DNA of 64,000 nt. It comes from Synechococcus sp. SynAce01. GTDB lineage: Bacteria > Cyanobacteriota > Cyanobacteriia > PCC-6307 > Cyanobiaceae. The DNA lies in contig NZ_CP018091.1 in NCBI RefSeq assembly GCF_001885215.1, positions 1,426,001 through 1,490,000 of the forward strand, written 5' to 3'. Each line of letters opens with the position of its first letter. Within the stretch, counting starts at the first letter, position 1. Shown here piece by piece: positions 60,481-63,760 of the stretch. Under the pieces are notes generated by a model. That model was not told the origin of the DNA, made no database searches, and was given only the letters and a program-made list of their open reading frames with translations. A program made the position numbers and the translations under genes.

Positions 60481-60966
60481 TCAGCCTGGTTTGAGGCGCA
60501 CCAGCACCTGGCCATATTCCACCGGTGTGCCGTTTTCCACCAGGATTTCGACCACTTCGCCACTCACTTCAGCCTCGAGCTCGTTCATCAGCTTCATCGC
60601 TTCGAGGATGCAGACCGGCTGTCCAACCGTGATCCGGCTGCCGAGTTCAACAAACGGCGGATCATCCGGGCTCGCCGCCCGGTAGAAGGTGCCCACCATC
60701 GGCGCGGTGATCTCGACCAGATCGGCGCGCAGGGCAGGGGCAGCCGGTGGTGGGACCGAGGGGGCGGTGGCCTGGCTGCCGCTGACGGCCTGAGCCGGAG
60801 CTGTGACAGTGGCCGCAGGGGCCTGGGGCACGGCTAGGGCAGCCGGGGCAGGCAGATTGCGGCGCACTTCAAGCCGGAAGTCGTCCCCTTCGAGCTTGAA
60901 CTCCTGAATATCGCTCTGCTCAAGGACGGCGAGCAGACGATGGAGCTGGTCATGGTCGAGCTGCAT
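60481..60966 (-). CDS. accB: Biotin carboxyl carrier protein of acetyl-CoA carboxylase
   Basis: 161 aa. The N-terminal helix [20 protein letters not shown] is followed by an Ala/Pro linker (about 38-80). The biotinyl domain carries the biotin-attachment lysine K125 in LEAMKLMNE. It carries carboxybiotin for malonyl-CoA synthesis. It lies 6 bases after efp, a pairing common in cyanobacteria. Confidence 0.97.
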
Positions 60967-60972
60967 GGTGCC

Positions 60973-61533
60973 TCAGGACTCCCTGCCGAGATAGCTGTCG
61001 TTGCGCGTGTCGATCTTGATCTTCTCCCCAATCGTGATGAACAGGGGCACCATGATCTGGGCCCCGGTTTCGACGATGGCCGGTTTGGTGCCCCCCGTGG
61101 CGGTGTCACCCTTGACGCCGGGATCGGTCTGGGTGACCTCCAGGACGACGGAGTTGGGAAGTTCCACTTCCAGCGGCACGTCGTTCCACGACACCACATT
61201 CACCTCCATGCCCTCCTTGAGGTACTTGCGGCCGTCGCCGATCTGTTTGGCGGACAGGCGGGTTTCTTCAAAACTCGCCATGTCCATGAACACGAAGTCC
61301 TCGGCTTCCATGTAGGTCAGCTGAAGCGTCGATTTCTCGAGCACGGCCTGGGCAACGGTTTCACCGGCGCGAAAGGTCTTGTCGACAACGCTGCCGCTTT
61401 GAACGCCTTTCAGCTTGGTGCGCACGAAGGCCGAGCCCTTGCCCGGTTTGACATGAAGAAATTCGACGACTCTCCAGACCTGGCCATCGAGCTCGATCGT
61501 GGTACCGGTGCGAAAGTCGTTGCTGGAGATCAT
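60973..61533 (-). CDS. efp: Elongation factor P
   Basis: 186 aa from the ATG at 61533, the usual length (the frame stays open further upstream without family support). It relieves ribosome stalling at polyproline. It begins [17 protein letters not shown]. The loop [14 protein letters not shown] contains the lysine that some bacteria modify. The end is [18 protein letters not shown]. It is transcribed with accB and divergent from the cyclophilin gene. Confidence 0.98.
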
Positions 61534-61657
61534 TCCGGCGGAACGTTTGAGCGGGATTGTACGGCTGCCCTTCCTCGGCGGGTCTTCCGCTGCCGGGCTG
61601 GCTGTGGGGGGCTGGCCGGCTGGTTGTGCCAAAGTCCGCTGAGAGACTCAATCAGCC

Positions 61658-62754
61658 ATGAAAGGGATCCGGTTGGCTCTGAAGCAACGCCTGCTGGCCC
61701 CGGGGCTAGCCCTGCTGCTGGCGCTTGTCGTCAACCTCTTGGCGGTGCACCCCGCCGCCGCTGGCCTTCCCCCGGCAATGCGGTCAGCGATCCTTCCGCT
61801 CTGCTGCGCAATGCCCTGCCGATTCCAGAGACGGATCTGCAAGACCTCCAGCACCGCCTGGAGGGCACCAGTGACGACCTGCGTGCCAAGCGCTGGAGCT
61901 CCCTGAGCAACGCCGTGCGCCGCGGCCAGTCGTTGCTGACCAGTCGCCGCGCCAGGCTGATCAGCAACTTTCCCTCCGAGCAGCAGGCAACGGCCGAGAG
62001 CCTGCTCGACCAGCTGGAGCTGGATTGGCGGACGCTTGCTGAAGCAACCGAAGCCCGCGACCGCGACGCCTTTCTCACCAGCCGCCGGGCTGCCTTGAGC
62101 ACGATCGGCAGCGCGGAATCGTTGCTGGTGGGGCCGTTCCCCTTCGAGATCCCCGAAACGTTCGTGGCTCTGCCACGGCTGCTCGGCAGGGCCACGATCG
62201 AGCTGGCCACCACCAAGGGCACCCTTACCGCCGTGGTCGACGGCTACAACGCCCCCCTCACGGCCGGGGCCTTCGTTGATCTGGTTCAGCGCGGCTTCTA
62301 CGACGGCCTGCCGTTCGGCCGCGCCGAGGACTTCTATGTGCTCCAGACCGGAGATCCCATCGGCCCCGCCGATGGCTACATCGATCCCACCAGTCAGCAG
62401 CAACGCCGCGTTCCTCTGGAAATCATGGTGCCCGGCGAGGACCAGCCCTTCTACAACCAGACATTCGAGGATCTGGGGATCTTCAAGGCCACCCCCGTGC
62501 TTCCCTTCGCCACCAAGGGAACATTGGGCTGGGCCCACTCCGATGAGGCCCTCGACGATGGCTCGTCCCAGTTCTTTCTGTTCCTGTTTACGGCGGAACT
62601 CACCCCCGCTGGCCTCAACTTGATCGACGGCCGCTACGCCGCCTTCGGCTATGTGGTCGATGGCTTTGAGGTGCTCGAGGAGCTGACCGGGAGCGATGGG
62701 ATTGTTAAAGCCACCGTGCTGGAAGGGGCCGAGAACCTGCGGCCCCATGGCTGA
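61658..62754 (+). pseudogene. CYP38-type lumenal peptidyl-prolyl isomerase, apparent frameshift after the signal peptide
   Basis: From the ATG at 61658 the frame gives a signal peptide (LALLLALVVNLLAVHPAAAG) and LPP. It then leaves the family sequence and stops at 61906. Another frame, with no start codon nearby, continues GNAVSDPSALLRNALPIPETDLQDLQ. A helical domain follows, and then a cyclophilin domain with VDGYNAPLTAGAFVDLVQRGFYDGLPF and AEDFYVLQTGDP, ending at 62754. In cyanobacterial homologues LPPGNA is continuous. One extra C in the five-C run at 61769-61773 would restore it. The family (plant CYP38) helps photosystem II assembly. The break may be a sequencing error or real loss. Confidence 0.85.
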
Positions 62755-63760
62755 GGGCAGCGATCCGACCCTGGCTGACCTGGGCGAATCAGGGCTGCTG
62801 GAGCGGATCGCCGCTTTTGCGCCGCCCGGACAGCTCGATGATGATGCCGCCCTGCTGCAGGAACGCAGCGGAGGTGTGCTGGTGCTCAACACCGATGTCT
62901 TGGTGGAAGGCGTTCACTTCAGTGATGCCACCCTCGATCCCGAGGATCTGGGCTGGCGCGCCGCAGCCGCCAATCTCTCTGATCTGGCGGCGATGGGCTG
63001 CCAGGAGGTGATCGGACTCACCGTCGGCCTGGTGGCGCCACCCGCCACTCCGTGGAGCTGGGTGGCGGGGGTGTACCGGGGCCTGGGCCAGGCCCTCGAT
63101 CGCTATGGCGGCGATCTGTTGGGCGGCGATTGCAGCAGCGGCCAGCAGCGCCTGCTGGCGATCACCGCCCTGGGACGCCTGGGGCCGGCCGGGGCGATCC
63201 GGCGCCGCGATGGACGGCCCGGAGACCGGTTGATCAGCACCGGTCCCCATGGCCTGAGTCGGCTCGGTCTGGCGGTGCTTGGCCGGGAGCCGCTGCCGGC
63301 CTCCCTGCCCGCCAGCTTGCTGGAGCGGGGCCTGGCGGCCCACCGCCGCCCCCAACCCCGCTTCGACGCCGTGGACGCCTTGGTCGACGCCAGGCCCGCC
63401 GCTCAGCCCTGGCGGGTGGCCGGAGCCGACAGCAGTGATGGCCTGGCCGCCGCTGTCGCGGCGATTGCCCGCAGCAGCGGTTGCGATGCCCAGCTCGACC
63501 GCGGTGCCCTGCCGATGGCCGCCGGCATGGATGGTCTTGCCCAGGCCGAAGCCTGGTGTCTGGGGGGAGGTGAAGATTTCGAGTTGATCCTTGGCCTGGA
63601 TGCGGCCTGGGCCGAGGCCTTGCTCAAAGCCCTGCCTGGGGCCAGCCCGATCGGCCAGCTCTGCGCGGTTACCGGTTCAGAGGCAGGCGGACACCTGAGC
63701 TGGTGGCCCAGCGGCGAACCGCTGGATCGGCGGATGATGGGTTTCAGTCACTTTCACTGA
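62747..63760 (+). CDS. thiL: Thiamine-monophosphate kinase
   Basis: 337 aa from the ATG at 62747, overlapping the cyclophilin gene by 8 bases. It phosphorylates thiamine monophosphate to the active diphosphate. Features are LGESGLLERIAAF, DDDAALL, LNTDVLVEGVHF, AAANLSDLAAMG, GGDLLGGDCSSG, and GGGEDFELILG near the C-terminus, matching the PurM/ThiL fold. Confidence 0.95.
   Translation: MAEGSDPTLADLGESGLLERIAAFAPPGQLDDDAALLQERSGGVLVLNTDVLVEGVHFSDATLDPEDLGWRAAAANLSDLAAMGCQEVIGLTVGLVAPPATPWSWVAGVYRGLGQALDRYGGDLLGGDCSSGQQRLLAITALGRLGPAGAIRRRDGRPGDRLISTGPHGLSRLGLAVLGREPLPASLPASLLERGLAAHRRPQPRFDAVDALVDARPAAQPWRVAGADSSDGLAAAVAAIARSSGCDAQLDRGALPMAAGMDGLAQAEAWCLGGGEDFELILGLDAAWAEALLKALPGASPIGQLCAVTGSEAGGHLSWWPSGEPLDRRMMGFSHFH

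Follow-up and report, generated by a model that had tools for sequence, protein, structure and literature searches.

The cyclophilin locus and its reading frames

The window, that is, the whole stretch of 64,000 nucleotides analysed here, lies on a single 2,750,634-base contig (bases 1426001-1490000) from Synechococcus sp. SynAce01 (genome G000 in our collection). Between two genes that we take to be efp-like and thiL-like, a CYP38-type cyclophilin is encoded in two pieces (Table 1). From the ATG at 61658 the frame reads MKGIRLALKQRLLAPGLALLLALVVNLLAVHPAAAGLPPAMRS... and ends at a stop codon at 61904-61906; the mature portion lies in the frame that begins at 61771, reads PGNAVSDPSALL... and ends at a stop codon at 62752-62754. 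The sequence-only reading had placed the signal peptide and the mature protein in different frames, joined at a run of five C; the open reading frames bear out the former point, and the letters, read directly, confirm both the coordinates and the C count of the run.

Table 1. Features of the cyclophilin locus, in positions of the window
Feature	Positions	Strand	Basis and remarks
efp-like ORF (presumed), divergent neighbour	60973..61533	-	ATG inferred at 61533 within a 219-aa ORF (60973-61632)
Signal-peptide ORF, 82 aa	61658..61906	+	ORF list; signal peptide at about residues 1-35, then an out-of-frame tail
Five-C run, point where the frames diverge	61769..61773	+	Letters read directly
Mature CYP38/anaCyp40-type cyclophilin frame, 327 aa and stop	61771..62754	+	Translation; profile and structure-sequence searches
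PsbQ-like domain PF21329	61789..62130	+	Mature-frame residues 7-120; profile positions 1-117 of 117; 84.9 bits (cut-off 27)
Cyclophilin domain PF00160	62197..62691	+	Mature-frame residues 143-307; 93.1 bits (cut-off 21.7)
thiL-like ORF (presumed)	62747..63760	+	ATG overlaps the cyclophilin stop by 8 bases (62747-62754)

On the 5′ side of the mature start, the hydrophobic stretch of the window's genome is off-frame (best 15-residue Kyte-Doolittle mean 2.71), and the mature frame itself contains no such stretch there (best mean 0.77). A 3-periodic Markov HMM, in which frame changes were free and which was blind to the site, placed the change of frame at position 61768. The break is more than chance, because the mature frame matches both domains and the nearest relative, with one additional C, has both parts in one frame. 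No Pfam or NCBIfam entry matched the 82-aa ORF in the profile search. Upstream of the mature start, the mature frame also stays free of stops over at least 277 codons (ORF 60940-62754), mostly opposite efp; this extension is taken as a chance open frame, and automatic gene prediction may call a spurious ORF of 604 aa at 60940-62754.

The identification of the mature frame as a CYP38-type cyclophilin, also made in the sequence-only reading, proved right: it carries both the PsbQ-like and the cyclophilin domains, and among its 26 matches to solved structures, PDB 7a73 ranks first and 3rfy second. On these matches, it is assigned to the CYP38/TLP40/anaCyp40 cyclophilins, and the gene as assembled is a broken copy. 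In members of this family the mature protein is continuous in frame with a signal or membrane stretch, a trait that the gene as assembled lacks. As a member, the product would be expected in the thylakoid, with a putative role in photosystem assembly. The second structure, Arabidopsis CYP38, aligned over mature-frame residues 2-324 (252.7 bits). CYP38 and its spinach counterpart TLP40 differ from the window's gene in being nuclear-encoded, with chloroplast targeting. The first structure, anaCyp40 (Alr5059) of Anabaena sp. PCC 7120, aligned over residues 2-323 of 327 (300.8 bits) and has the same arrangement of a PsbQ-like helical domain and a cyclophilin domain. According to its published description, the anaCyp40 gene has an N-terminal membrane or signal stretch (PMC8967839); in contrast to the window's gene, this stretch and the mature portion form one protein. 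That description rates the likelihood of the signal sequence as low and mentions an N-terminal peptide starting at residue 15, so that cleavage in anaCyp40 is unsettled; it also names TLP40 as the CYP38 orthologue (PMC8967839). Two further cyclophilin-domain matches are present elsewhere in the window's genome.

The flanking arrangement is shared, with efp-like and thiL-like genes on either side of the orthologue in all 19 named loci. L034, from the nearest relative, and L037-L041 show an equivalent overlap between thiL and the cyclophilin gene, and the Prochlorococcus loci L047-L052 a similar one; in L035 and L036 (G002 and G003) there is no overlap, and the aligned thiL start lies past the cyclophilin stop. 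Since the cyclophilin stop overlaps the thiL start, translational coupling of these two unrelated genes is possible.

Orthologues, the C tract and constraint

Sixty genomes, the window's own included, were searched for the cyclophilin. The gene is widely kept: 58 of them (own counted) gave a match, including all 43 with completeness of 90% or more and contamination of 5% or less. The search of the 60 genomes returned no match in G023 and G030, both incomplete genomes. In G051 and G022 the match runs through the cyclophilin part alone, as does the best match of G048. Two of these genomes, both 99% complete and of the same class, have no ordinary full-length orthologue: in G051 the match is limited to residues 123-324, and in G048 it covers residues 117-325, with a second, divergent match over residues 2-219. 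Both may be cyanobacteria without thylakoids.

For comparison of the N-terminal region, 29 best loci from other genomes were combined with 19 named loci from a second collection; three genomes are common to the two collections, so that these 48 loci represent 45 distinct ones, and the second collection may omit the window's own genome. Four genomes are of the same genus, the window's own among them, and the sample includes no second strain of the species. In a scripted test, the signal stretch was in the mature frame in all 48 relatives' loci (best 15-residue Kyte-Doolittle mean 1.69 to 3.23). The nearest relative is G001, the metagenome-assembled genome 'Cyanobacteria bacterium bin.51' (L005, identical to L034), with 89% amino-acid identity and the same neighbours. 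It has the same bases, GGCCTT, directly before the tract and differs from the window in having six C and one frame; the earlier reading of a one-base deficit is right. At the tract G002 has CCTCCC and G003 seven C, both in frame. Runs of at least five C are found at the tract in 9 of the 45 distinct relatives' loci and runs of at least six in 5, all in frame. The lesion is shared by none of the 48 other loci examined, which makes the frame-breaking five-C form derived and private within this sample. As expected, viral contigs yielded no hit for the tract, either as it stands or lengthened by one or two bases.

The remainder of the gene is intact. The mature frames of the window and G001 are both 981 bases long and align without an indel, and the alignment of their N-terminal DNA has one internal gap, located at the C tract. 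Between these two mature frames dN is 0.058, dS 0.453 and dN/dS 0.127, much like the dN/dS of 0.131 for the intact pair G002/G003. At sites where G002, G003 and G026 agree, private amino-acid changes number 5 in the window's genome and 9 in G001. Judged from these comparisons, nothing indicates relaxed constraint or a period without function; because the gene shows no other damage, the lesion is either very young or not real.

Frame breaks elsewhere in the assembly

The assembly was screened for further frame breaks over 1.264 Mb of its 2.75 Mb, with the draft genome G002 (1.582 Mb) as comparator. A frame-change HMM trained on each genome gave 15 events in G000 (11.9 per Mb), several of which look like overlapping or transposon genes, so that the figure is not a count of real breaks, and 14 events in G002 (8.9 per Mb), a raw count. 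Before the overlap filter the numbers were 33 and 38, and under a stricter penalty 4 and 5, for G000 and G002, respectively. Between these 1.264 Mb and the 1.582 Mb of G002, the HMM thus reveals no clear excess of frame changes in G000.

The assembly was also screened by orthologue alignment, extended from a smaller run of 153 and 161 genes. Comparison of 347 G002 genes with the 1.264 Mb of G000 yielded 12 candidate breaks in 11 genes, and the reverse comparison (376 G000 genes with the 1.582 Mb of G002) yielded 10 in 9 genes. On inspection, most candidates could be put down to neighboring or overlapping genes, or to chance open frame upstream; clear breaks by eye remained in two genes in G000 (of 347) and one in G002 (of 376). 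The screen needs more than 20 well-matched residues on each side of a break and misses the cyclophilin itself.

G/C runs of six number 376 per Mb in G000 and 678 per Mb in G002, at G+C contents of 63.9% and 66.3%. Runs of 5, 6, 7, 8 and 9 number 2143, 475, 83, 18 and 3 in G000 and 4238, 1072, 234, 71 and 15 in G002; the fall-off in G000 is smooth, with no sharp cut.

Several individual genes in G000 stand out. At about 124.79-124.94 kb of contig C1 (L139), a gene that is presumably a RecD2-like helicase, with 93-95% protein identity to G002, carries one-base indels at three sites in a span of about 150 bases. Neither G002 nor either of two similar copies in G026 has these indels, and not all of them lie in homopolymers. 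Poor local consensus may explain the stretch, or it may be a real pseudogene in an accessory region; the latter is considered because a DNA search over the three-indel stretch found no match in G001 and G003. At about 437.87 kb (L174), a gene that we assume to be a sodium/glutamate symporter, 88-90% identical at the protein level to its G002 counterpart, has an 8-base deletion near codon 43. This looks like a real mutation, unlike a homopolymer miscount, and real fresh mutations therefore probably occur in the window's genome. The HMM also placed apparent frame changes at about 55.08 kb (L135) and 393.92 kb (L152), in what we take to be a DUF1254-like gene and an HsdM-like methylase gene. On this screen of 1.264 Mb, a wholesale homopolymer problem in the assembly is unlikely, but a single miscount may have occurred, and a real fresh deletion at the cyclophilin tract is quite possible.

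Origin of the one-base deficit

Taking the frames, the family, the intact relatives and the absence of other damage as established, we favor, by a slight preference and at little better than even confidence, an ordinary gene whose private one-base deficit is a consensus error. The locus would then hold a gene between efp and thiL for an exported, putative thylakoid cyclophilin of the CYP38/TLP40/anaCyp40 type; the frame break would be a private deficit of one base in a short C run, accompanied by no further decay nearby; the deficit would be a miscount in sequencing or assembly consensus, slightly likelier than a mutation in the cells; and the living organism would probably make the normal exported protein. 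Counted in favor of an error are the position of the lesion in a homopolymer, the widely kept gene with its in-frame relatives (48 of 48) and unrelaxed constraint, the three one-base indels in the presumed RecD2-like gene, and the lower number of long G/C runs per Mb in G000 than in G002, although the G+C content of G000 is lower as well. In addition, a real break might disturb thiL too, whose start overlaps the cyclophilin stop. Counted against an error are the lack of a clear general excess of frame changes, the smooth fall-off of the G/C runs, the 8-base deletion in the presumed symporter gene and the dispensability of the Anabaena orthologue under normal growth; the three-indel gene, too, may be a real accessory pseudogene. 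Long-read assemblies are known to contain errors that fragment genes (PMC12007338); the SynAce01 assembly may or may not be long-read. The present case resembles the ordinary one-base frameshifts, and the consensus errors that fragment genes, described for bacterial assemblies (PMC12007338 and PMC3711429), in that a one-base homopolymer deficit falls in a constrained gene. The earlier description of the cyclophilin as broken holds for the sequence as assembled; in the cell the gene may be intact.

The main competing explanation, to which we give a substantial chance somewhat short of even, is a real and very recent one-base deletion that would do away with the exported protein and might have been fixed in culture, for example, or during a clonal bloom. 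The absence of a clear frame-change excess in the assembly argues for it, as do the other broken genes (the 8-base deletion and the apparent breaks in the presumed DUF1254-like and HsdM-like genes). The lack of a second lesion or of any relaxation, and the restriction of the lesion to this one locus among 48 others, weigh on the opposite side, although both are compatible with a fresh mutation all the same. Also in its favor, the Anabaena orthologue is non-essential under normal growth, according to PMC8967839. An older pseudogene under decay would likewise account for the broken frame and is the least probable of the explanations; it is already contradicted by the lone lesion, one in about 1,100 bases at a dS of 0.45 from the sister species, and by the retained constraint, with the low dN/dS of the mature frame and fewer private changes than in the intact sister G001.

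Two further explanations were considered. The sequence-only reading had raised a reversible switch between five and six C, that is, phase variation of cyclophilin export in a subpopulation, and the position of the tract, near the start of the gene and directly after the signal peptide, would suit switching. However, neither the length nor the codons of the tract are kept among relatives, the in-frame tracts of G001, G002 and G003 lend the switch no support, and a run of exactly five is nothing special among the 2143 such G/C runs in 1.264 Mb. With five or six bases, the run is also a short and weak substrate for switching. A switch is therefore very improbable, and we regard as equally doubtful its fuller form, in which real five-C cells would coexist with six-C cells and slips would toggle export and, through the overlap, lower thiL translation. 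Alternatively, the protein could be made from the sequence as it stands, by -1 ribosomal frameshifting, by polymerase slippage or from a start in the mature frame that would yield a cytosolic form. The far upstream extension of the open mature frame and a possible TTG start at 61624 speak for this; however, that TTG is the only in-frame ATG, GTG or TTG between the efp ATG and the run, and it would add 49 residues with no hydrophobic stretch. The first in-frame starts past the run (GTG at 61915 and TTG at 61933) fall within the PsbQ-like domain. None of the 48 relatives' loci has a frame transition, and the stretch of 100 bases that follows the run is no more stable when folded than its shuffled versions (-35.6 kcal/mol, z = -0.70, for one stretch and with pseudoknots outside the model). 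Programmed frameshifting was set aside on its lack of conservation and of an unusual fold in that stretch, and production from the sequence as it stands, by any of these routes, has only a very small probability.

Should the favored consensus error be correct, it would show that one miscounted homopolymer is enough to give a widely kept photosynthesis gene the look of a lost one. A switch, if true, would give a heritable and reversible high-light phenotype, with export of the putative thylakoid cyclophilin turned on and off. With a real deletion, translation from the ATG at 61658 would yield 82 residues and no exported cyclophilin; the strain, lacking this protein, would tolerate high light and salt less well. 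By analogy with the Anabaena orthologue, such a natural loss would probably be tolerable, at a likely cost in strong light. Whether error or deletion, the lesion is an ordinary one and leaves knowledge of the family unchanged; if it is real, SynAce01 would be a natural null for a CYP38-type cyclophilin, in which the part played by the family in a picocyanobacterium could be tested.
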